From contig OX387199.1 of NCBI GenBank assembly GCA_947561715.1, positions 21,333,001 to 21,397,000 on the forward strand: 64,000 nt of DNA, written 5' to 3'. This document shows, piece by piece, positions 26,346 through 47,502 of the stretch. The DNA comes from Ascidia mentula. Its lineage: Eukaryota; Chordata; Ascidiacea; Phlebobranchia; Ascidiidae. A model generated the notes under the pieces. That model had not been told where the DNA came from. It searched no databases and saw only the letters and a list, made by a program, of their open reading frames with translations. The position numbers and the translations under genes were made by a program. Every line of letters starts with the position of its first letter. Positions within the stretch are counted from its first letter, which is position 1.

Positions 26346-29300
26346 TGTTACGGAATTATTTCGGCAGCTTTGCAATTAAGCGGTTAGATGTTTTTGGGTG
26401 GCGATGTTATCCCCCAATTAACCCTTCTACCTAATTTGGTACTTTGCACAAAACTGCCTCCCTAATTCTGATACTGTCCAGAACCCTGCAACAACGGCTC
26501 ACCACGAAGCCAAAGTAACCCAGGCTGATTTAACTTATTGGACGTCGTGTTCAACTATAAAACGAATAAAAACAGTACAAATGACACTGGCCAAGATCAC
26601 AATTATCCACAACACCGTAACAGAGGTGCTCACTACACGACGCCCAGAAGGAGACTCCTCGTTTTAGGGAAATCGTTCGTTACATGCAATCGCCAACCAA
26701 TCAGGATGCGCCTTTCCGACACGCGGCACATCCGGGGCATACAAAAATAAACGGAGCGTAAAATAATAGGAAAGGGGAGACGAATGTAATAAACTAGTGT
26801 GGTGAAAGTGAAGTGAGAGAAGCGATATACGTGCGTAAAACAATATAATAAATAAGTGGTTACAACGAAAGAAAACAGTGAAATTACAAGGTGCCAGCAA
26901 GAGAGGTGAAAACAATGAAATAGATACAATGACTAACCAAAGTGAAAGGTGACGTGAAGGAAAGAAAATTCGTAACACTCCCCCCAACCCAAGAATTGTC
27001 CTACTCCTGTTGGACATTGGTCTACACGTGTGTCTCCGACGAGAATCGAACTGGCCGGCGCCGGGTCCGTGTAGACCTTCTGCATCCGCCCGAATTATCC
27101 GGTGAACTCGATACCTCTCCATTGTCCACTCGGGTTGTATTTGGCCTAAATACATACACCAACGTAGGTTGTTGATCTTCAGTCTGCGGAGGTTCCGCCG
27201 TTTGCTCAGCGGGCATTGGGAATGTATCTGTGGTCGGTTTCAGCCGATTGAAATGGACAGTCTGTTGTTTACCAGTCCCATCTTCAATGACATAGTTCAC
27301 AGGCCCGCGTACTTCGACCACTCGGTACGGACCTTTGTAGGGATACTGCAATTTCTTGCACCGACCTACGGGAACGACCGGGTTCGTTAACAGCACATAG
27401 TCTCCCATCGAGTATGGCTTTCCCCGTTGTCGCAAGTTGTAGCGGTCTTCCATACGATTGCGCTGTGTCATAAGACTTTCCCTGACAATTTCTTCGGCCA
27501 GCTCTAGGCCGTCGCGTAACTGGTCGATCTCCACTCCGTAAGATCGTCTTGAATCTTCTCGGAGGGATCCCAATAAATCTGCCGGAAGGCGCAACGGTCG
27601 GCCGGTCAGAAGGGTGTGCGGAGCTTCTCCCGTTGCTTCATGGGCGCTTGCGTTGTAAGCCGCGACTACTCCTGGCAACGCCTCGTCCCATCGTCGTTCG
27701 TCTTTCTGTATGTAATTTCTTATCATTGTTATTATGGTCTTATTATTACGTTCGACATCGCCATTTCCGGGCGCGTGATATGACGTAGTTCGGCTTTTCT
27801 TACAGCCCATCAGGCGCAGCAGCTCGGAAAACAGGTGACTTTCAAAATTTGTCCCTCTATCGGAATGGACCGTTTCCGGGACGCCTTGCACCGTAAACCA
27901 ATTGCGGTAAAGCAAGCTAGCGGTCTCATTTGCGGTTTGGTGTCGCATCGGCCACGCTCTAACGTATTTCGTGAAAAGGTCGCAGGCTACCAGTATAAAT
28001 TGGTAACCCGAACGGGTAAGTGGTAGTGGCCCAATAACATCTACTTCAATCCTTTGCATGGGTTTATCCTCATGCGAAGGTATAAGCGGCGCTTGAAAAT
28101 GTTGTGTTGACTTTTTGTTGTATTGGCACGGCAATGCCCAAATGTCCCCCTCCATGTACATCATCATGTAAGCTGGACGTCGCTTCCCCGACAAGGCTTG
28201 TCGGCAAAACGATTTTTAAATCATCCTCCTAAGAGGAGTTTCCGCGGCAGCAAAGAATGTCCGCCTTCAGTAACAAGCCACTATAGCGGGACCAGTAGTG
28301 GCGATTCGCGGCGGATTCTCGCTTGATCGCTTTAAATTTCGGGCGTATACCTCTCTTGACCCATTCTCTTACGGCAGCTAGCTCCGGGTCGTTACTCTGC
28401 CGCTCCAGCAGCTCGTTCTGTTCATATCCGATGGTTGCTTTCAAGTCCACGGCGTTAACCTGTTCAATCCCTCGGCCTTCATCCACTATCTTGTATGGAC
28501 ATTCTGGATCATCCTCCAGGGAGTATAGACGGGAAAGTGCGTCCGCGTTACGGTGTTTGCTTCCCTCCCTGTGATGTATATCAAAATCATAAGCGGAGAG
28601 ATGTTCGACCCAGCGCGCGCATTGCCCGTATAATTCTTTTGACTTCCACAGCCACCACAACGAGGAATGGTCAGTCCGTAACATAAATTTTTGACCAAGG
28701 AGATAGCAACGGCAAAGCTTGGTCGCAAATATTATGGCGAGCAGCTCTTTTCGCGTGGTGGAGTAGTTGCGCTCTGACCTATTTAGGGTACGGCTGCCAT
28801 AAGCCACAACACACTCCTTACCGTCAACTTCCTGGGAAAGGACGCATCCCACGGCCGTATCGGATGCGTCCGTGTCAAGTATGAATGACTTATTGAAGTT
28901 AGGGTAACAAAGGATCGGAGCGGTCGTAAGGTACCGTTTCAATTGAGCGAAGGCCTCCTGGCATTGGTCGCCCCACTGGAACCGCTTTCCTTTTTCTGTC
29001 TGCCTGTGGAGGGGCCCTGCGATCTTCGCATAGTCACGAATAAATTTGCGATAGTAAGATGTTAGGCCTAAAAACTGCCGGATCTCTTTCACATTACGCG
29101 GTGTTGGCCATTCGGAAACCGACTGTACTTTGTTGGGGTCGCATCGTATTCCGTTCGACAACACGTGACCTAAAAAAGCCACCTCCTCTTTGAAATTCGA
29201 ACACTTAGACGGCTTTAACGTCAGCCCCGCGGTTTGAATTCTCTCTAGGACGTCAGCTAGTCGATTTAAGTGTTGCTCGAAAGTATTGGAGTAAACAATA

Positions 29301-32300
29301 ATGTCATCCAGATACGCTAAGGCACCCCGCCACTCGATCCCGCTTAATACCATGCGCATTAAGCGTTGAAAGGTCGCTGCCGAATTGCATAGACCCATAG
29401 GCATTACTTTAAATTCAAACAGGCCGACGTGACTGGTAAACGCAGTTTTCTCTTGCGAAGAGGCATCCATAGCGACCTGCCAATAGCCAGATTTCAGGTC
29501 TAGCGTAGAAAAATACGCCGCGTTCGACATTTGGTCAAGGCTGTCGTCTATCCGGGGGATCGGGTAACTGTTCTTTTTAGTTAGCTCGTTTAGCTTGCGA
29601 TAATCGACACAAAAACGAGTCTCACCGGATTTCTTCCGAACCAACACGATCGGACTGCTCCACGGCGATTTAGACGGCCGAATCAGTCCTTGTTTGTCCA
29701 TTTCTGCCAAAATCTCTTCCCCTTTCGCCTTGTTGTGGTGGGGCATGCGGCGGGGTGGCTGTCGCACTGGAGCGTTATTTCCTGTGTCGATCACGTGACG
29801 CACCACATCCGTGCGTCCAAGGTCAACGTCAGATGTTGAGAAGGCGTCCTGGTTGGCGCGAAGAAGGGCAAACAGCTCTCCTCTTTGTTCTTCAGTTAGG
29901 TGGTTTCCGATCTGAGCTTGCTCTATAATGCACTTAAACGGGTCACGGTTATCCGCTGTTTCGTGTGGTGACACCGAACAAATTTCAGCGCAGCCGCCAA
30001 AACAATCCGGGTGTTTACATTTCGCCGACGATCCATCGACTACCACACATGCGCCAGACATTGGACATTCGACATTGCCAAAGGCATAAACAGGCGATGC
30101 CTGGGCGATCATTGAGCCGCTTGGTATTTCTACCGCTTCGTCCCCCAAATTCGCGACATAGACCCCAACAGTGTTACTCTGCGCCATTGTTATACTCGTA
30201 GCCGTCAACAACCCATATTTTTCCACAAACCCGTCTATCTTCTCAGTTAGAAAAGGGGTTTCCCTGGTGTGCGGCTTTTGGCAAAAGTTTGCTGTTACAC
30301 ATACCTCGGTAAACGCGGGGATGGTGACATCGTCGACGACGTACACCTCGGAAGGTTGTGGCAACGGCACCGGAGAATGCGAGAGTGGCACGCTTGCATC
30401 CCCTGCTGTTAGCACGTTGGCTTCGTAGCAGATCTGGCATTTGTTTGACTGGAGGAAATCTAATCCTAGAATAAGGTCGTGTGTAAGATTGTCCACAATG
30501 TAAAAACTCGCGTGAGTCATCAATCCTCCCACTCGGAGGGGAAGCTCGACGCAGCCTTTTACCGCCAATTGGTGTCCGCCAGCCCCGACCAAGTTCTTCT
30601 TTGAGCACCTCTTTACCCGGTCGTGATGCTCGGCGCTTAAGGAATGCCACTTTAGGTTATTAATCAAGCAGACACTGGACCCGGTGTCCAACAACGCACA
30701 CATCCTCGTCCGGTCGACCAGTAGGTTGACAAACCGCAACGGCGCGGCGGGTGTAGCGGGTTTTTGTACCGACTTTGGCGCCAAACATTTGGGTGCATCT
30801 CGAGTTATACGTTTTTGGTCGAAGTGACATTTTATCTCCGGTTCGCGACGAATCGATCTGGGAAACGCAGATGTACATGGTATGTTTTGACGTCTCGTGT
30901 CGACGTCCTTTGTGCGCATACCCGTATGCGGGCAGTCGCGCCTCATATGGCCCAGTCCACCGCAACCATAGCAAGTCCGTGCTCGCACGTTGTTGTATTG
31001 TGGTCGTTCGCGCTTTATGGCATCCACTTGAGCTTGTAGCGCCGCTAAGGTGTCCTCGAGTTGTGTGTTCTTTTCCTTGGACCGTTTCTCCATGTCTTCT
31101 AACTTTTTTAGCACTAATTCCATCTCTGATGCTTTTGTGTTCACTGCAGCGACTTGGACAAAGCTCGGTGTTTGCGTATTGACAACGACTTGAGCTGCGG
31201 CTCTGAATGATCGCTCATACTTGATGGTGATCGGGATCGTGTCCGCGAGGCGCCGGTCTTGCAAGCCTTGCAGTAAGGTAATACAGAACCTCATTTTTAA
31301 GGGCCGCGTCAGCGGAGTTGCTGTGGGCACCATCGCCCAGTGTCTGTAGGACGTAAACAAATTCACGTGCTGATTCGCCAGGTAATTGCACGCGCCTTAT
31401 CAGCTCGGCGCGTTGACGCTCTGCGTGTTGACCAGTAGCCCTTTGGCGCAGAGGTCTTTGTCGGAAACCTCGAACAAGTTTTTTTCTTGTATTGTCCATT
31501 TCAAGTCGTTGTCAATGCTTGCCAGGAACAGGTGTCGTTTCATTTCTTCTGAGGCCTCGTCGCTCATACAATATGAGTCAAATACATTAAAATACTGTCC
31601 TAGGTCAGCTCCCGGCCGTAAAGGCGGAGGTTGCATTAAAACATTAAAAGCCATTGTTAAGAAAAACCAACCTTTAAAATATCATAAAACCAAAGTACAC
31701 GTGGGGAGTCTTCCCAGTAAAACCAGCCGGGTGTGGTGACAGGGTCCTGGCGTGCTCGCCAAGTTGTTACGGAATTATTTCGGCAGCTTTGCAATTAAGC
31801 GGTTAGATGTTTTTGGGTGGCGATGTTATCCCCCAATTAACCCTTCTACCTAATTTGGTACTTTGCACAAAACTGCCTCCCTAATTCTGATACTGTCCAG
31901 AACCCTGCAACAACGGCTCACCACGAAGCCAAAGTAACCCAGGCTGATTTAACTTATTGGACGTCGTGTTCAACTATAAAACGAATAAAAACAGTACAAA
32001 TGACACTGGCCAAGATCACAATTATCCACAACACCGTAACAGAGGTGCTCACTACACGACGCCCAGAAGGAGACTCCTCGTTTTAGGGAAATCGTTCGTT
32101 ACATGCAATCGCCAACCAATCAGGATGCGCCTTTCCGACACGCGGCACATCCGGGGCATACAAAAATAAACGGAGCGTAAAATAATAGGAAAGGGGAGAC
32201 GAATGTAATAAACTAGTGTGGTGAAAGTGAAGTGAGAGAAGCGATATACGTGCGTAAAACAATATAATAAATAAGTGGTTACAACGAAAGAAAACAGTGA

Positions 32301-33499: not shown

Positions 33500-33881
33500 C
33501 TGAAGGTTCTTGAAAATAATTTAGGCAAAAACATTTGTTAAAAGCGTACAGGAAAACAAAGGATTGCAAGATTACCAGACTGAACAACCTCTATCAGTCA
33601 AAAGACATTTTGTTCTTGAAGATGTTAGTCTTGATGTGTGCTATTGATGCTAACCACTACGATTATTCTTGTTGTTGTTTTTAGAATACTGAGGGTGCCG
33701 CATAGGCGAAATATATATATTCAAAAAAAACATCTTGATTGGATGATTAAGTAGAAATCTAGGCGAGTCCTAGTTATCACTTTTTGTTCTTGAAATATTC
33801 GTTCACCAGCAGTTGGAAAATGGCCAACATTATTTTTCGGACTTTCCAACATCATTTTAGTAATAAGAAAAAAACGCATAC

Positions 33882-35049
33882 CCATTGAAACCACTGGTTG
33901 TTCATCTAATGGAGGCCAACTTGCATCAGGTTTAATTGGCAAATCCGGTGTTGAGAGGCCTTCATGAACTTTGCAGACCGCCTTGCTTATGTTAATCAGG
34001 CTCTGCTGTTTTAACAAATTAAACAACGTCTGTTGTAAAATTTGTATCGATGGTCGTTGTTCTGGGATGTGTGATGAACATTGCAACACCATTTTCTTCA
34101 GCTCGTTCTTGATGGGACTTGCCTGTATGCATTTAATGTTAGGGTGCTCCATGCCGTAACTATCCATAAGTTTTCGGATGTCCAAGTCGTTTTCGAATGG
34201 CATCTGTCGGCTTGTCGTCGTAAACAGGACCATGCCAAAAGCGTAAATATCCTCGCTTACAGTTGATGGCAATTTGACGTTCGCCATCCTCTCTGGAGAC
34301 GTGAATACGGTTTGTGTACGCACGTTATTACCGTCGGCGTAGACGTAACCGATTTTGCAACGTAACTCAAGTGAAACAAAAATATTTGCAGGTGTTAAGT
34401 CACTCTTTGTTAGTTGCCTGTAACCACTTGTGTTGTGGAGGTATGATAGACCGTCGCAGACATCGCTGGTCATTCTTAGCAGGAGTGGATCATCTATTTC
34501 CACTGCATGGTTTAAAAGCAGATTTTCGAGGGTTCCGAATGGCATGTATTCAGTGATAACCCCAAAACCCCATTTCCATTGCGTGTAACCGTAAACTCTT
34601 ACAATACGGTCGTAGTTAGCCTGATGCAAAACATCGAACAAACGAAGGACTCTAAAAATATAGTTGACAAATGAAATACTGATATTTTTGGTCCGGTACG
34701 TAATTGATTTTAGGTTTTAGGCCTACCTGTTTTTACGGCTTTGGCTTTCATCTTTTTCTTCAATGGAAATACTATTAACTGCAACATACTGATACAACTC
34801 GTGATGGCACAAATTTACAACACCTTCTGATCCAGGATATAAACTTCCTGACTCCGAAATCACTCTTCGGACACTTTTTACATTAAAACATTTCATCTCG
34901 ATGCTTGTAATGTTGTTACCGCCTAATTGCTTTACGTAATGGGGTTTAACTGAAGGCCACCTGAGTTGCGCCCACAATTCAAATATGTCCAACCGGACAA
35001 ACACAAAAAAGTCAAACAACACGAAGACCGAGACACGAAATCTTTTGCG
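33882..35049 (-). CDS. RIP-like pseudokinase exons (start of gene A)
   Basis: Two exons, 35049-34727 and 34651-33882, join in phase (KN-R-VLRLFDVLHQ). Domain order: a hydrophobic N-terminal stretch (VFVLFDFFVFVRLDIF), a Gly loop (GSEGVV), then VAVNSI where active kinases have VA.K, so the ATP-binding Lys is Asn. The hinge is VITEYMPFGTLENLL. The catalytic loop is KSDLTPANIF, keeping Asp and Asn but losing His-Arg, and the DFG position reads IGYVYAD. SPERM replaces APE, and DIYAFGMVLF and EQRPS mark the C lobe. Missing catalytic residues point to a scaffold or allosteric role. The closest type is the RIPK/TKL group. The donor at 33881 is phase 1 and feeds the microexon array. The true start codon lies upstream and was not found. 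Confidence 0.72.
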
Positions 35050-37345: not shown

Positions 37346-40300
37346 AGCCGTTCCCATGGAGCTGTACAAATATTACGACCAGTTCCTCAACAAGACAACA
37401 TTTATGAAATCGATGAATGTGAACTTGGACGAATATTCGGACAACCAGACGTGGCCAACACACCGGTTGCAATCTATTCAATTGCTGGTATTCTCAGAAA
37501 AGGAAAATCCTTCATGTTGAATTTTTTCCTGCGATACCTTTGGGCCAAGAATAATAACAAAGTAAGTCAGTCTAAAATTTAATTTTATCTTTTTTTTAAT
37601 GTTGTTTCCAACAGTCAGATTCGTGGCTTGATTGTAAAGAAGATAAACTTGTTGAAGGATTTCCATGTCGAGGTGGCTCCGAGGCCCACACACAAGGAAT
37701 ATGGATTTGGGATGAACCTTTTTTTATTGATACACCAAAGACAAAAGTAATATATACAAAGTGAATGTTTAAATATGTGTTTGCAGTGTATCTACATGAT
37801 CTTTTGCAGCCCAAAAACATGCAGTGTTTTTTAGGTGGCTTTGTTTCTTATGGACACCCAAGGGTTGTTTGGCTTGAAGGGCACAGTACAAAACTGTTCC
37901 TTTATATTTGCTCTAAGCACTCTGATGAGCTCGATTCAAATATACAATCTGTCGGGGTTTATAAACGATAGCAGTTTACAATTTCTTCAGGTAAGTGTGT
38001 ATGAGATTTACCTCTGTTAGTCGCAAAGCTTCAGTTGTTACCTAATATGTCAAGTTTATACTCTTTTAAACTGGAGCCTCCACTTTGAATTATAGGTAAC
38101 ACATGTTTAGTTAGGTATCGACTTACTGCTTCCAATAGCCACTTTATACCAGTTTATCTTCTATATGTGAATAACTTTAAGTGCACAATTGTCAATAAAA
38201 CTAGTTTCAAATTGTTTGGACAACTCAATATATAGTTGGAATTTTTGGATTTGCATTTGTTTCTATTTAAGATTCATTACATGCCTTTGGATAATTTAAT
38301 CAGAAAACATTGCATTGTACAAACCACGATTTAATCAGAAAAATGCCCTGCACAACCATTTATGCACTGTAGATGTTTTTTTGAAATAAATTTTGTTTTG
38401 TTTTTTGATAAATTTATTCACTGCACCCAGAGTAACATAGTGCAATTACTTTATAATCATCAAAGAAATTATTGAGGAAATCCTGTTTGCCATGTGATAG
38501 CGTAAATTGTTTTGATTTGAAACTATGAGCCTCATGCAATGCTCACTCTGTAACGTATACTGGTTCGATTCACAAGGCTTAAAAGAATAAACATATTTTG
38601 ATTGGAACGGTTGACTGAAAATATTATATCACTGGAGAAAGTACAAAGAATCCAGGTCTGTTGACCTGAGGCATATTTACCTAAAAACTTACAATAAACT
38701 AAAGTTCACCTAGGAACTCTATGCTTAACCAAACGGTAAGCGGTACCTACTGCGGCATACTTTGCGATAGCATGATTGATTAAATTCACTGATATTATCA
38801 TGTAATAATTAAATCACATTTGACAGCTTTTCACAGAACATTCTAAAAGTGGTAATTTACAGAATATTTTAAAAGTGGAAAATGCCGATGCCCTGTCTTT
38901 ACATAAGATCTTGAGAATGAACAACACTGCCAGTCCAAAGCCCATCTTTCAGGTTTGGGATTTTATTTTATGTCACATAAAACTGTGCAAATCTGCCTCT
39001 CTTTAACGAAATTCTCTCTTTACGTCACTCTTTTTTCTAGAGTATACCTAAGTTTAATTATATTTCAAGCACTTGATGTTTCTTATTCGTGATTGGGGAG
39101 ACCCAGATTACGAATTGGGTTTCAATGGTGGTGAGAAATATCTTCAGAATGTCTCGCACCACATTGAAAAAAAATCAAAAGCTGATTCAGTTTGGAAGGG
39201 GTTGCGTGGTAATTTTGAAAACATCTCTTGTTGTTTGATGCCATATCCAGGAAGACGTGTGTCTCAGAGAAAAAGAAACTCAGATGAACTTCAAATGAAA
39301 GGTTAATTGTAAAATAACTTGTCACACGAAATAAAATACAATTTACTGATGTTATTACTTATGCAACCATTGTTTTCTCTATCTGTCACAGATTTAGATG
39401 AGGATTTTCTTGAAACAATCAATTCAGCTGTGAAAAAACTATTTTCGAGAGAACAAGTTGTGATAAAAAAAGTCAACGGCAATCCAATTACAGGAACTGA
39501 TCTTATTAATTTAAGCTTGTCTTACTTCAAAGCACTGAACAACGGAAAAATGCCTGATGCTAAGGCGATAGCACAGGTAATAACTTTGATTGCACAAACC
39601 AACATAAAAATGAAAATATACAACAAATGATGTTATTTATAATTTAATACTTAACAAACAAACTGTGTTTGTTGTTTGTTCAGTAACTTTTCTTTTTGAC
39701 AAGTTAGATATTTTATGACATGCTTGTTTCAATACAAAACTTAACTGCTCAAAAAGTGTTAACCCTTTACTTTGTTTGGGTGGTAACTTTTTTTGTAAAA
39801 AACATGTTAGAAGAATTCTAGCCATACTGTTGTTAACCTTGTCATGTTTCAAATAAAAAAACACGTGAGTTGTGTTCCTATGTTAGAAGAATACAATAAA
39901 AAAGTTTTTGAAACTTCTCTTGTGTGTTTAGGTACAAGCAGAATACATTACTGAACAACTCATTCAAGAATGCATTAATACCTATAAACAACAAATGAAA
40001 AAAGTAACTTCCAAATGACTTTTGTTTATTCATTTGCTAAAACAATGTATAACACACATGTTTTTCTTGCAGTTTTGTGAAGATGGATGTTATAGCCAAA
40101 CTCACTTTGAACAAGAACACAAACATTTAAAAGCAGAAGTTCTGAAAAATTTTAACAGCAAGTCAAATTTTGGCGATGTTGAGTTGCTTTCCCAGTACCG
40201 CAAATGTTTGGATAAAAACATGGACTTACAGTTTGCCTTGTTGAAACAAATCAATGAAGCGAAACTGGTGTGAGAAACTTATGTAACCATTGGTTGTGAC

Positions 40301-43300
40301 GTTGGCAATAATGTACTAAATTTAAGTTCTTTTGTACATAGTAAACCAGTAAGTAAGACTGCTGAAAATTTAATATACAAACTTAGTGTAAAGCAGAATT
40401 GGTAGCAATGATTGCCAACTCCAAGTTAAACACATGTTGCTTATGCAGTATATTGCACCAGGAATGTAGTAGATCTGACAAGCTTGAATGTACCATTTAA
40501 GAAAAGTTTAAAAAGTTTAAATTGTCCCTAAAAGTTTTGAGAAATCCTAAAGTCGGTCACATCTAACATGAATGACTAAAATTACCAATCTAGATGCAAG
40601 CAGAAAACACAAGTGTGGCTTTAAAAGCCACAGAAGAAAGCATAAATATTTACAAGATACGAATGGACAAGGTAAGTTATAAATAATTCTTTCAATCATC
40701 AAAGATCTGATTCTAAACTTACTGCAGTTTTGCAAAGAACAATGTCGCAGTCAACCCTCCATCAAGGGGGAACATTACATTTTAAAAGCAGAAGCTCGGC
40801 GAAACTTTGAGAGCAAACTAAATTTTGGCAATAGTGACTTGGTTGCAAAGTACTTGAAACACTTGGATGAAAACCTGGACAAGGAGTTTCTTGTGTATGA
40901 ACAAAAGAATGAGGAATATTTGGTGAGTAAACTTCTGTTTCATTTGAAATAATGTGCTAATGGAATGGGACATGAAGTAGTGCGATTTAGCAAAATATGT
41001 GTCTAAGTTTATTCTTTCAAAAATTGAGATTTTTTTCCAAGAGTTTAAAAGTGAAAATTATTTTTAGCAACATTGGCAAAACATTTTGTGTAAAGCCAAA
41101 GAAGATACCAAAAAACACTACAACCAGAATATGCATAAAGTAAGATTTTTTTCCCATCAGAAACTGTTTATTGTCATAAAGGAATTTTTTTCAGGCACTC
41201 AATGAACAATATTTGGATGAAACTCAGTTTGAATTGGTTGAAAGGCGGTGCCAAGAAAGGTCGTTTCAATTTTACAATGAAATGACAAAAAACTTTCCGT
41301 CTGGATTTGATCTTAAACCTGACTGTAAAATTAGGGATTGGTTGACTGAGCTTGGTCAAGACTTTTTGAAAGAAAACACAAGAAGTCTTGTAAGTAATTG
41401 CCCACTTGACACTTGTTAAAGTTGTAAATTAACAGTGAAAAGTTATCAAAGGTGTTAGCAAGGTAGTCATGAATATTGGCATTCTCACAACTGTCAAAAA
41501 TATGAAAGCATAATGTAGATTATTCCAAGCATGTTTGTTCAGAAACTGAATGAAAAAACAACCCAAACCGAGAAAGTGCAAAGTTTCCATAACTAATTAG
41601 ATTCCTATTTACAATTTGTGGTACAAGAACATTGGTCGGTGTTGAGAATGAAACATGCCTATGGCCCACTAATGACTATACTGGGTTTTATAAATTTAAA
41701 TGTTATGTAATAAAACCAAATCTTAAATCTGGAATTTAAGAAAAAAAGAAAGACTTTTTAGAAAATGACTTTTGAAAGTTATAAAATTCACCAAATACTT
41801 AATTTTTCAGAAACAAAGAGAATATAAAGTAATGCAGACAAAGTCATCAGTGGTTGGTGTGGAAGGTGGCAAACTTGAAGTGATGGGTTGCGTTGTTGAT
41901 ATTCCTCCCAATGCACTTGATACAGATGCTAAAATTTGTCTACGTAGCTACTATGGAAATACGAAGCACAGTGTATGTGGTTGCATATTTTCATTAAAAA
42001 CAAACATTGAAGAACGCTCTTGTCCATGTCTTATTTGTTTTCATTGGATATTATTTTATTTAACAAGCTCGTATTAGTTTTTTTCTCTTGTATAAACAAT
42101 TAATACTTGTTTTGATCAATACCAGAAAATTATCAAATAATTGACTATAATTGGCAAGCAGATATGAATGATCATCATTTACTTTATTTCACAGAAAGAA
42201 ATTACTCCAGTGTTGTATTGTGGACCAAGTGGGTTAAAGTTCACCAAAGATGTCACCATCACTTTACCAACATGCTTTTTGTGTGAAGATCCTCCCCAAC
42301 CAGTTGTGGTAAGAGCAATTGCTTTTACTTTGTATGGCAAAAGCCAGCGTGTAGATTCAGATTTAAATAGTTACTGACCTAATAAATTTTAAACTGTTTC
42401 TGTATAACATATGCTGTAAATAATGTTGCCATTATACTCAATGTAAAGGTTGAAACAAGCCATGATGGAAAAACATGGAAAGATTACAAAAGTTTGACCT
42501 ATAGTGGTGAGGGAGAGTTTAAATTTGAAGTTACTCATTTCACTTGGTGAGCGTAACATTAGATAAAGTTAAAGACATATTTTTAATTTGTGTCGTACTT
42601 TAGGTTTCGTGTGGTCAGCAAGAAACTATCAAATTTGTCAAAGCAGAAAATGGTATTGGTTGGATTTTCAGAAAAGGAAAATTGTGACTTGGTAAAAAGA
42701 TCATGGAAATTTCTCATTTGTGACAGACTGAAATTTAACCTCATTTCAAATCCCACTTTGAAATTTTTGTTTGGTTTTCCATTGAGGTAATAAATCACAT
42801 CATGGTTTTTAATTTTATCGTTTTGCAAAGCTTTAAGGTCTTGATCTCCTCTTGCATGTCCGGTGTTCTTTAAAAAAAGGCATTTTATATTTGAAGCTTT
42901 AAAGTAGTGTCAACAAAGTTAACAAATCTACTGTAATTATTTGAAACTTTTAATTAAAAGTCACCTTAGTTACTAAAAGATTAAATATCCCACATCTGAT
43001 ACAATATTCACAGCAACTTAATCTAATACAATTTTAAGCAATATTTTTGAAACATTACCCTTTTCAGTAAATGGTCTAAGTTTGACATAGCTATTGTAAA
43101 ATTTCATTAAATTTCTGTACATGCTTGTGTTAATTTGATCACTAGATCGAATCAAAATGAAGCAACGCTGACACTTGAAAGTGAAAGTGGTCGAGTTACC
43201 TTTGATCAGAATGACATCAAGTTGAAAAACATTTTCCTGAACAATTTGGAAAAACTCAAAGTTGTTTTCAATTTTGCTCCACATAATGGTGATGAAATAG

Positions 43301-44009
43301 TTGACCTTAAACTGGATTTGAATGGAAAGTTTTACAAAACAAACTTTAAAGTAAAAGTTGAAATAACAGACAAACAACAAGAAGTAAGTTGGAAAATAAT
43401 CTCTGTAGCACTCTATAGAAACATGCAAGTTTCTACATATGTACATTTGTATCCAGGAAGAGAAAAAACAGCAATCTGATTCAAAAAATGACAGGCTACA
43501 TCAAGCAAGTATGATAAAGTATATATTTTAGTTTATGGGTGTATTTCATTCTTGTAAAATGTGATATTCAGATACTCTGTTCTCTGCCAACACATTTTAC
43601 AACCCAAACATTCATATAGCAGGAGGCTCAATTAACAAAACGAATAATTAACAACTGACGTCTACTAGGCTTTAATAAGGTTTGTAAGGCTGAAATACAC
43701 TTGTATGAAACATAATTCTACAAAAACAGTTTAATTTTACTTGACACAATATAAATTGAAGCTGCATGAACAATAAAAAAATCTTATAGGCATTGAGTTG
43801 AATAATTTCCATAATATTGTTTTGTTCTAGCCTAGCTTGTCTCTAAAAATATGCTATTTGCAAGTAACAAAAAAAATTTGGATTTTTGTGAAAAAAATAG
43901 CACTGTATGATTATCCTGGTTAAATGTGCATAATAAATAAAATTGGCACATATAGATATTTTGAAGATTGTCACGTAATAAATCTTATTGTTTTTCAGAA
44001 CAAATGTAG
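37346..44009 (+). CDS. Atlastin/GBP-like GTPase fused to ZU5-UPA (copy 3)
   Basis: Exons: 37346-37561, 37615-37746, 37835-37990, 38827-38952, 39070-39301, 39392-39576, 39932-40003, 40073-40267, 40594-40671, 40728-40922, 41068-41139, 41195-41389, 41811-41972, 42195-42308, 42449-42546, 42604-42786, 43146-43383, 43457-43508, 43999-44009. Together they total 2712 nt, one open frame of 903 residues; the first exon with ATG is missing. The G domain is intact: [33 protein letters not shown]. Three helical modules follow; the first two (72+195 and 78+195 nt exons) are recent duplicates. Then comes a ZU5 domain ([37 protein letters not shown]) and a UPA-like beta domain starting at THFTWFRVV. The HF-T step sits where NLRP1, CARD8 and PIDD self-cleave at HF-S. 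No death domain or CARD follows; the tail is Gln/Lys-rich. Known atlastins and GBPs do not carry ZU5-UPA to my knowledge. Confidence 0.82.
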
Positions 44010-44685
44010 GCAACAATTAAGGCGAAGGCAAAGAAAGGTAAATTCGAACCAAAACGAACCATCAGTAACGAAAAAATATAAAGCACTTCAAATCAATATG
44101 TACAAAAATACAAAGCACTTCAATGCCTTGTTAATCTATTCTGCATGTCATTCCCCATTCTATTGCAATCACTATGGGTTGTCCCACCTCTTAAACTTTA
44201 TATCATAAGAATGGAAACGTTGATTTTAGTCAAAATATTTCTGGCATCTTTCCTATGAAAGACAAATATACTCTAAAGCAAGCACTGTCTAAGAAACACT
44301 GAAAAGTTTAGACATAGAAAAAATTGGTGTTGGTGTTTTGCACAACGATTCCATTCTTGTAATAATTTTTTTTGCAAATGTACATATTCTCTATTTCATA
44401 TCTTTGCACTTTTTTTATACGTTTTCAAACATACTTTGTTTTTGGAACTTTGTTGTCCTCCTGTTGGTGCTCAGCAGTTTACCTGTGCAATGTATACAAA
44501 AGTTGTTTGTTTATTATCCAGTTTGTTTTATTGAAATTGCCTTTGTGGTCTTTTCGTGCCCTTCGTGACTTTCATGTATGTTAATCGTGTTTATTGATTT
44601 GATTTTGTGAAAGCCGTAGATTGTAGTTTCGCTAATATAGATTTATAAACGCCTACAACGATGGTCGCAGTTGGCAACGCTCGAG
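44010..44685. other. 3' flank of GTPase copy 3
   Basis: AT-rich; an alternative longer reading of the last exon runs on to 44208 but looks non-coding. Nothing else is recognised. Confidence 0.35.
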
Positions 44686-45075
44686 GACGCATATTGGTAT
44701 TTCTGTGAAAATAAGTTTCGGTGGTGGGAAATGCCCAACGTGTGGACCTTTGTCACAACGGAAGGGCACGCAACAGAGCAAACCAGTGATGCATGGGGGT
44801 GTATTGTGCATTCGAATAAGCGCACATGCGTTGTCATGGCGAATTTTTAGGGTGTTCGGTGCAGTTTAGTGGGGTTTGGGGCTATTTCAATTAGGTAGTT
44901 ACTTGCTGGTGGGTGCTGATAAACATTTGGTGAAAATGTAGCTCAAAATTTAGGCTATATTTGTGGGAAGATGTATTGTTTACGGTAGCCGATTATTCGT
45001 GATTTTATGAAACATCAATCCCAGTTCTACAAATGTTGATCAAAATTATAGTCTCTGGACAAATTGTTTAGCTAC
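44686..45075. repeat. Interspersed repeat family A, second copy
   Basis: Aligns end to end with 8717-9115 in the same orientation (GGACGCATATTGGTATTTCT; TCAATTAGGTAGTTACTTGC). Confidence 0.55.
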
Positions 45076-45691: not shown

Positions 45692-47502
45692 TTAGCAAAC
45701 ACATTGAAACTGATCAATCTCAACATACAGGTTGTAGTCCATCTGTGAGCGTTGTTCACTTAACTCCCTTAGTTTATCTTTGCAAGCTTTCTCCAATTGA
45801 AATTTTTCGATCGATGATCGATCGACGCATCTTTCATACAATTCTATTGCTCTGTTCAAACTTTGCTCAGCTTTCTCATAGAAATCATAACAATTGTAAT
45901 CAGGCTCTCCGAGTTTCCGATCTTTGACTTTAGGCCTACCTGATCTTACTGAAGTTTGGATCATTTTAGTGTAAACATCTCCTTGTAATTCATGACTCCG
46001 AGCGAGTATGGAAAGATCTTCAACTCTGCGGGTGGCGTTGGTCGCAATTGTCGCCAGCGTCGCTTCTGCTTTGATGAGGTCACCCAACATAAACTCAACG
46101 TGACCAACACAATATAAACACTCGGTTTCAACAAGTGCTTTAACATCTTCGTTCAATGAACCGATCGTTCGCAATTTACTGGTGGATCTTATCATAAATG
46201 GAAGGATTATGGTTCTGGCCATGTCCTTCGTGGTCTGGTTTTTGGTAAACAGCTCCACCAACACTACCAACTCATTTAAACACCCCTGAATCCCGCCTAC
46301 AGCATTCTTTCGATCATCTAACTTGTCGAAACTTTGAAGTGCCACGATACAAAATATGGCCGCATCTGCATATTTTTCGTTTGCTCGTTCCTGCATTGAA
46401 AACTCCAACAAATGCTGACAAGTTGTTTCTGTCACCTGAAATTCCACCTTCGGTTTTTCGTACTTGTCGTGTTCTTCTTTGGACTTACATATTTCTCTCG
46501 CCATGTAAGAGGTGTATTTTTCCGTTTCCATTTTGTTTCCTCTGTTGAAGCTGTCTTTCGCTAGACCCCGAACCTTCAGAAGTTGCGAAAGCGTGTTGTG
46601 CAAGTTTAAATCTGAAATAACTGCTGTGTTTATCTCATTGTGTAATTAACTTAACATAATAATTCTATCGAACCTCTTTTTTTAAAGAAGGATTCCAACC
46701 TTTTCTTGTAGTTGCAACTTTTGTAAGCCACACTTGCCTCGGCTGTTTATAAAATAAACTTTAGCGACTACTGAGTTGCGTAAGCCATAGCAAATAATAC
46801 AAGACAAAAATGTCAAAGAGGATTCGTGTCTTGTATTGTAAAGATTTTTTGTACCTGTGAAGATTGCTTTGTCGTTCATTTTCTTCTGGGCTATGTATTC
46901 ATAAACCGGTACACTGACATTTGGGGTCTTACGTGTTGTTTTCTCTGCGCAAAACAGGCTTTTATAACAAAATTCCAGTAACAAAACGCTTTGAAACTGT
47001 GTAGGTTGTTGTAATTGTATACCATTGAAGGTTGTAGCAGTCAATCACAACTATGACGTAATAGTATCGTCACAATGTCAAAGAGTTATCCTAAGTTTGT
47101 ATACACATAGATTTTATATCAAGGGGAAATGTCAGTATATGGACGTTTAAACCTTGCACAACAAAACTCGTTGAGTCCATAAGTCAAAAATTATCATGGT
47201 AAGAGCAAACGTTTCGCAACTTTGCGTGCAAACCGCTTTGTTTACTTCACTGAAATTTCCCTACTTGTTGGAACAAGCTATTGACACACAGCTTGTGTTA
47301 GGTGATAGCTGGGCTTGTCAGGGAACAAAACTATGTGTTTATCTACACAACTATGTGCTGCAACACTATATGCCAAATATTAAATTAAAATATCTTCATT
47401 TAAGAAAAATACAAATCTCCCATGAATAAAAAAAACGTGTGAATGTCCAGAAAAAGTTTTGAGCAGAAATTTTGTACCAAGGTGTTCGTAGGTGTCGTCC
47501 AT
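45692..47502 (-). CDS. Short TPR-like protein with Tyr motif (gene C)
   Basis: Three exons in phase 1, 47502-47478, 46944-46855 and 46611-45692, give 344 residues from MDDTYEHL to stop. After a short N-terminal part with PVYEYIAQKK (YEYI, a possible SH2-docking or Tyr-phosphorylation site) comes a helical domain of about 300 residues with TPR-like pairs (YADAAIFCIVALQSFDKL; LGDLIKAEATLATIATNA; AEQSLNRAIELYERCVD). It is a paralogue of the 3' end of gene B and shares ERANEKYADAAIF and GDLIKAEATLATI. A further possible exon upstream at 47803-47763 (DEIEDDNICEEPQQ) does not join in phase, so this start may be an internal one. The function is unknown; an adaptor role is inference. Confidence 0.7.

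Follow-up and report, generated by a model that had tools for sequence, protein, structure and literature searches.

The described systems that come closest to the protein reported here combine a sensor part with a ZU5-type module or cut themselves at a comparable site. In the FIIND of NLRP1 and CARD8, cleavage is abolished by mutating H942 (rat NLRP1), H270 (CARD8) or H1186 (human NLRP1) (PMC8081665, PMC3210808), and E279A lowered cleavage of CARD8 (PMC3210808). Adhesion-GPCR proteolysis sites read H-X-S/T, with the His as base and Thr as a normal nucleophile, but the motif is insufficient by itself: ADGRB2, with HLS, is uncut (PMC13062082). One paper groups this site with ZU5; it presents ZU5 as a domain by which bacterial surface proteins process themselves and notes an expanded set of it in sponges (PMC3482391). 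Several combinations of sensor and module have also been published. In zebrafish, the GBPs Gbp3 and Gbp4 bear a CARD at the C-terminus, and a FIIND is named in the legend to their domain diagram, with its bearer not stated (PMC4932187); NACHT with ZU5 is reported from cnidarians and sponges (PMC8260672, PMC12909245), and FIIND with TRADD-N is reported as well (PMC8195603). Proteins that place ZU5-UPA behind a sensor are thus of a kind already known, and the suggestion in an earlier note on this DNA that such a combination would be a new immune-like design is weakened at that level.

We analysed a stretch of 64,000 nucleotides of Ascidia mentula DNA (the window), in which a gene on the plus strand joins an atlastin-like GTPase to ZU5. 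Reading exon by exon with GT/AG sites gave 19 exons between 37346 and 44009 that encode, stop-free, exactly the 903 residues that had been claimed for the product. All 18 introns are GT/AG, the exon chain is phase-consistent and the reading ends at 44009. The encoded order is GTPase, helical repeats, ZU5 and a tail of UPA length. Exons 1-5 (37346-39301, residues 1-288) hold the GTPase domain, with a 21-residue P-loop stretch recognised by eye; exons 6-12 (39392-41389, residues 288-618) hold the helical repeats and the start of PF02841. A phase-0 intron (41390-41810) separates the helical part from the first ZU5 exon, and GTPase, helical part and ZU5 share a single frame across it. An intron of 351-421 bases stands at this junction in all six copies on contig C52, to which the window copy belongs. 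The earlier note had treated the two parts as one gene with the ZU5-UPA part in 41811-44009; the exon chain and the common junction intron agree with both statements. Copy 1 of the window carries a glycine-rich tail, in line with the glycine-zipper tail that the earlier note had mentioned. The start-codon exon was not found in the window gene. Its first modelled exon has no in-frame ATG ahead of the P-loop, so the start codon lies upstream of 37346, and a search for a start exon resembling that of copy 1 returned only copies 1 and 2. At the other end, the last exon, of three codons, is weak, and because the unspliced reading past 43508 also stops within about ten codons, the tail is the last part of the protein whichever reading applies.

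Other features of the window lie close by. Directly after the gene, 43872-44808 is 92-93% identical to a stretch behind copies A and E and may be a repeat. Three open frames on the minus strand were classified by eye: a Gypsy-type retroelement polyprotein (28229-31396, 1055 residues), a protein kinase-like frame (33721-34716, 331 residues) and a frame that resembles helical TPR-type repeats (45692-46645, 317 residues).

Pfam profiles matched the GBP N-terminal domain (PF02263, 182.1 bits, residues 21-310) and GBP_C (26.1 bits, 317-436) in the window protein. The closest solved structure to the GTPase is Atlastin-1 (E 4.7e-66), over residues 5-428, which comprise the GTPase and first helical bundle. 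Since the best chain named GBP reached only E 2.3e-18, we rejected a GBP identity; in the original description of a GBP/atlastin-like enzyme, the atlastin half stands and the GBP half does not. The note's term of a membrane-attack-type GTPase gained no support from the analysis. The C-terminal transmembrane hairpin of atlastins is absent: the highest 19-residue Kyte-Doolittle mean is 1.29, within the GTPase, and 1.11 from residue 619 on. As a database query, the whole protein matched 1604 proteins. Precomputed domain annotation placed PF00791, PF17217 or PF13553 in none of the 120 listed proteins, among which query coverage was highest for three from Clavelina and Ciona (63, 64 and 58%) and at most 50% for the others. 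The tunicate atlastin-like proteins Clavelina P0012 and P0013 and Ciona P0035 and P0105 share the GTPase with the window protein. For P0012, P0013 and P0105 the shared stretch is longer (58-64% of the query), and P0012, unlike the window protein, has a glycine-rich tail at its end. A scan of six tunicate GTPases gave no ZU5 match, which suggests that the GTPase-ZU5 fusion may be particular to the window's lineage. In P0025 (Clavelina lepadiformis), also atlastin-like, the GBP match begins at residue 170, and the part preceding it has no Pfam match at E 0.1.

Three exons encode the ZU5 region: a (41811-41972, residues 619-672), b (42195-42308, 673-710) and c (42449-42546, 711-743). The ZU5 profile (PF00791, cut-off 21) scored 25.1 bits over residues 630-703 when run on the full protein and 28.5 bits on the excised part, and it matched the excised parts of all 13 family members examined (best E 8.6e-07), confirming that domain. 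What follows is encoded by two UPA-like exons (42604-42786 and 43146-43383, to residue 883) and two charged tail exons (43457-43508 and 43999-44009, with the stop codon at 44007-44009 and an uncertain last splice). Neither the UPA profile (PF17217) nor the FIIND profile (PF13553) matched any of the 13 members, the window copy included, and an exon-by-exon search of the genome with both found no match, in a setting where the control genomes were also without a match and so gave no positive control. The UPA assignment consequently draws on position and on length: 162 residues follow the proposed cut, and UPA constructs of CARD8 and NLRP1 have 150-152 (PMC7794386). We regard UPA identity as probable on these grounds; the earlier claim of a UPA domain has support from position and length but none from profiles. 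Searching the protein database with the ZU5-UPA region, or with the 13-member alignment, returned nothing under the E-value limits, and a search of solved structures with the same region gave only marginal matches to ZO-1, ankyrin and unrelated proteins. A C-terminal CARD is absent, the window protein ending after its tail. The genome holds 3 CARD and 17 Death matches, none of them near C52:21.1-21.5 Mb or the array on contig C70 described below.

The motifs quoted in the earlier note, including an HF-T step, are present. His740, Phe741 and Thr742 are encoded at 42536-42544 in ZU5 exon c and stand, at the end of ZU5, where FIIND and PIDD are cleaved; the proposed cut falls between 42541 and 42542. 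None of 25 distinct copies departs from His(-2) or Phe(-1), and at the nucleophile position 24 of them have Thr and one, C52 copy C, has Ser. His(-2) is the only invariant His in this alignment, whose most distant member, a gene on contig C1, is 41% identical to the window copy; HFT is also found in the four copies dropped for stops. The set is not a census. It joins the window copy, 10 assembled or single loci, the best 30 loci of 91 matches and the C1 gene, less those four and 13 duplicates. The match that located a locus began at or after the site in 14 of the 30, began 4-19 residues before it in another 14 and was the site-bearing exon in 2, so there may be some pull towards the motif. Because these 25 paralogs do not vary in 27 of 221 well-filled columns, the invariant HF amounts to modest evidence. 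Three other ZU5 genes have the motif too: HFT in L004 and L005 on C69, through low-scoring spliced alignments, and HFS in L086 (C71:4352951-4354400, minus strand). The last is an intronless frame of 411 residues with an N-terminal hydrophobic stretch and a ZU5-like part ending DHFS. At the ZO-1-like and ankyrin-like loci of the genome the alignment did not run through the site, and these loci therefore supply no uncut control.

Residues that matter for the FIIND are less regular. The window copy has a His (H715, codon 42461-42463) 27 residues before Thr742, which is also the distance between His and Ser in the NLRP1 and CARD8 pairs H1186/S1213, H942/S969 and H270/S297. This canonical FIIND His had been overlooked, yet position -27 holds His in only 4 of the 25 distinct copies, with Gln in 11, Glu in 9 and Ala in 1, and we dropped H715 as support for FIIND chemistry on that account. 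Position -18, that of CARD8 Glu279, is Lys in 4 copies (the window copy has Lys), Glu in 4 and Gln in 17. As each of the two FIIND residues is present in 4 of the 25, the H-X-T chemistry of GPCR proteolysis sites is a better fit than that of NLRP1, and we think that the bond, if cut, would be cut by GPS- or PIDD-like chemistry. The earlier proposal that Thr could act as the nucleophile is plausible in the light of the H-X-S/T sites cited above. PIDD peptidase S68 (PF10461, cut-off 31.9) matched the window copy with 12.8 bits and E 0.15, over residues 119-130 of the excised part, which hold HFT. Sub-threshold matches to S68 occurred in 4 of the 13 members (best E 0.036) and to the Nup98 autopeptidase in 3 of 13 (best 0.0078); these matches are weak, given that unrelated families gave similar E-values (Laminin_N 0.02, F5_F8_type_C 0.044). 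A genome-wide S68 search returned five matches (best E 0.5), none over the cut-off or at ZU5-UPA genes, and 3 of 14 bacterial or archaeal controls matched as well.

The ZU5-UPA exons are not confined to GTPase genes. In the window's own genome (196 Mb, 79 contigs), we found at least 6 sets on C52 (21.15-21.45 Mb), at least 34 first-exon places on C70 and additional matches on C1, C69 and C71, counts that are lower bounds from the matches listed. Each of the six C52 sets has GTPase exons upstream on the same strand. On C70, no GTPase match was among those listed; instead, 32 of the 34 listed places (all but 2494696 and 3823495) have an LRR match within 6 kb upstream on the same strand, against 1.1% of random plus-strand positions, when compared with the 150 scored of 1114 LRR candidates. 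The interval C70:2.09-2.64 Mb (L051-L053, L084) holds 27 of these places, 26 of them with such LRR matches, and from its sequence is a tandem array of LRR-ZU5-UPA genes. In one C70 gene that we checked, the 8 kb upstream of the LRR exons contain no frame longer than 111 residues and thus no NACHT exon of usual size. The C1 gene (L085, C1:24504001-24514000) encodes a 500-residue NACHT frame (67.1 bits) followed by LRR-like exons and the ZU5-UPA module, an NLRP1-like order, with VSHFTWY at the site. No listed CARD or Death match lies near it, the sequence after its UPA-like exon being covered for about 0.4 kb. In the GTPase genes and the C70 copies the first ZU5 exon begins at the same Lys, behind an AG acceptor that is CAG-type on C70, and in the C1 gene it begins at most 3 residues off, a pattern expected of an exchangeable cassette. 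That LRR and NACHT-LRR genes bear this cassette too suggests an output module of innate immunity that would serve several input modules. NACHT matches as such are numerous on C71, where C71:14.2-15.35 Mb and 0.68-0.95 Mb hold about 40 of the 95 listed, in tandem and mostly as frames of about 480 residues.

In 15 pairs of C52 copies, dN/dS was 0.24-0.82 for ZU5, 0.36-0.54 for the helical part and 0.34-1.14 for the UPA part; the last was below 0.6 in 13 pairs, and its two values above 1 belong to pairs that differ by few changes. For the GTPase, the four pairs that are closest in its synonymous distance (window-B, A-B, D-E and window-A) gave 0.95-1.10, and the other 11 gave 0.43-0.85. Between the window copy and copy A, synonymous distance is 0.098 in the GTPase, 0.069 in the helical part, 0.291 in ZU5 and 0.698 in UPA; such inequality between domains of one pair marks the C52 copies as mosaics. 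In 40-codon windows, replacements peak around residues 121-280 (window-A and window-B), and synonymous changes are frequent in part of the same stretch. These patterns fit a family with exchange between copies and with relaxed or diversifying selection on the GTPase. A junction intron common to six copies, together with dN/dS mostly below 1, indicates that the fusion is more than chance.

We slightly favour the reading that the protein is a two-part sensor, a GTPase with a self-cut ZU5-UPA-like output module, in which the cleavage is predicted. The protein would be cytosolic, judged by the absence of a membrane-like stretch. Its atlastin-like GTPase and extended helical repeats carry an exon cassette where neighbours have a glycine-rich tail, and this cassette codes for ZU5 and, by position, length and conservation, for a UPA-like domain. 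Folding of ZU5 would strain the Phe741-Thr742 bond, His740 would deprotonate Thr742, and an N-O acyl shift followed by hydrolysis would cut the chain. The half with GTPase and ZU5 (741 residues or more) and the UPA half (162 residues, about 19 kDa) would stay associated until a change in the GTPase half, either nucleotide-driven dimerisation or degradation, freed the UPA half to assemble with others, as in NLRP1 and CARD8. With no CARD or death domain attached, the output partner would need to be recruited in trans. The observation and the interpretation of the earlier note are thus each borne out in part.

Three other readings address the same data. UNC5b is not known to be cut, and a ZU5-UPA-like module could likewise be structural here, as in UNC5b and ankyrin, folding back on the helical part to regulate the GTPase, with HF-T kept for packing. 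The absence of His(-27) and Glu(-18) from most of the family would suit such a module, as would the example of UNC5b, which keeps the fold with Leu at the Phe position (PMC3210808); moreover, all aligned copies are paralogs from a single genome. Against it, the nucleophile position holds only Thr or Ser in every distinct copy and in the three further ZU5 genes, and Phe is never lost there, so that we consider an uncut module unlikely, though the most serious competitor to a self-cut sensor. Degeneration is a far less probable account: the tandem family does include copies with stops relative to the window protein (2 in copy B, 8 in copy C, which has a sequence gap) and the domain alignment has stops in 4 of the 30 loci fetched, but the window copy and copies A, D and E are stop-free over the stretches read, and ZU5 dN/dS is 0.30, 0.30 and 0.38 for window-A, window-C and window-E. 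Least probable of all is that our gene model has run two genes together, one coding for the GTPase and ending near 41389, the other coding for ZU5-UPA. The fusion was read from genomic DNA alone and its start-codon exon was not located; the frame, however, is open across the junction, the intron recurs at every C52 copy, and the identical first ZU5 exon follows LRR exons on C70. Extending the favoured two-part sensor to the whole genome, we tentatively propose, as a possibility held with less confidence than the sensor itself, that a single ZU5-UPA cassette, which cuts itself, has Thr as its nucleophile and lacks a death fold, is a common back end swapped between atlastin-type GTPases, LRR proteins and NACHT-LRR receptors. 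Some forty loci would then make up a FIIND-like sensor system whose signal comes from UPA assembly alone.

Set beside the described systems, the window protein resembles each in part. Like zebrafish Gbp3 and Gbp4, it joins a large GTPase of the GBP/atlastin superfamily to a FIIND-type module; the zebrafish proteins are GBPs that end in a CARD, whereas the window protein is atlastin-like, has HF-T and contains no CARD or death fold that we could find, and the two fusions are probably independent. With the FIIND of NLRP1 and CARD8 it has in common a ZU5 followed by a UPA-length piece, a Phe before a hydroxyl nucleophile and, in the window copy, the His at -27. It differs in reading HFT where those proteins read SFS, in lacking Glu(-18), a CARD and a FIIND profile match, and in belonging to a family mostly without His(-27). 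PIDD (HF-S, peptidase S68) and the Nup98 autopeptidase likewise have HF before the nucleophile and gave the weak profile matches, that of S68 over the site; those matches are far below cut-off, the nucleophile here is Thr instead of Ser, and PIDD has a death domain. The adhesion-GPCR site offers His(-2) as base and allows Thr, but it sits in the extracellular GAIN domain, and its likeness to HF-T is one of motif. Among the matches listed, searched at the level of titles and abstract openings, we found no literature on an atlastin with ZU5 and no account of a ZU5-bearing GTPase from a tunicate. Within that scope, what is new here is the atlastin-type partner, a Thr at the site, the lack of a death fold and the use of one cassette on three sensor types. 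Because the copies already vary in nature, with 24 Thr and 1 Ser at the site and with His, Gln, Glu or Ala at position -27, the residue requirements of the reaction are directly testable. If the HF-T bond is cut, the cassette would be a portable one with Thr chemistry, probably with His(-2) as base, here joined to an atlastin-type GTPase, and self-cut sensing would be free of the CARD output to which NLRP1 and CARD8 couple it.
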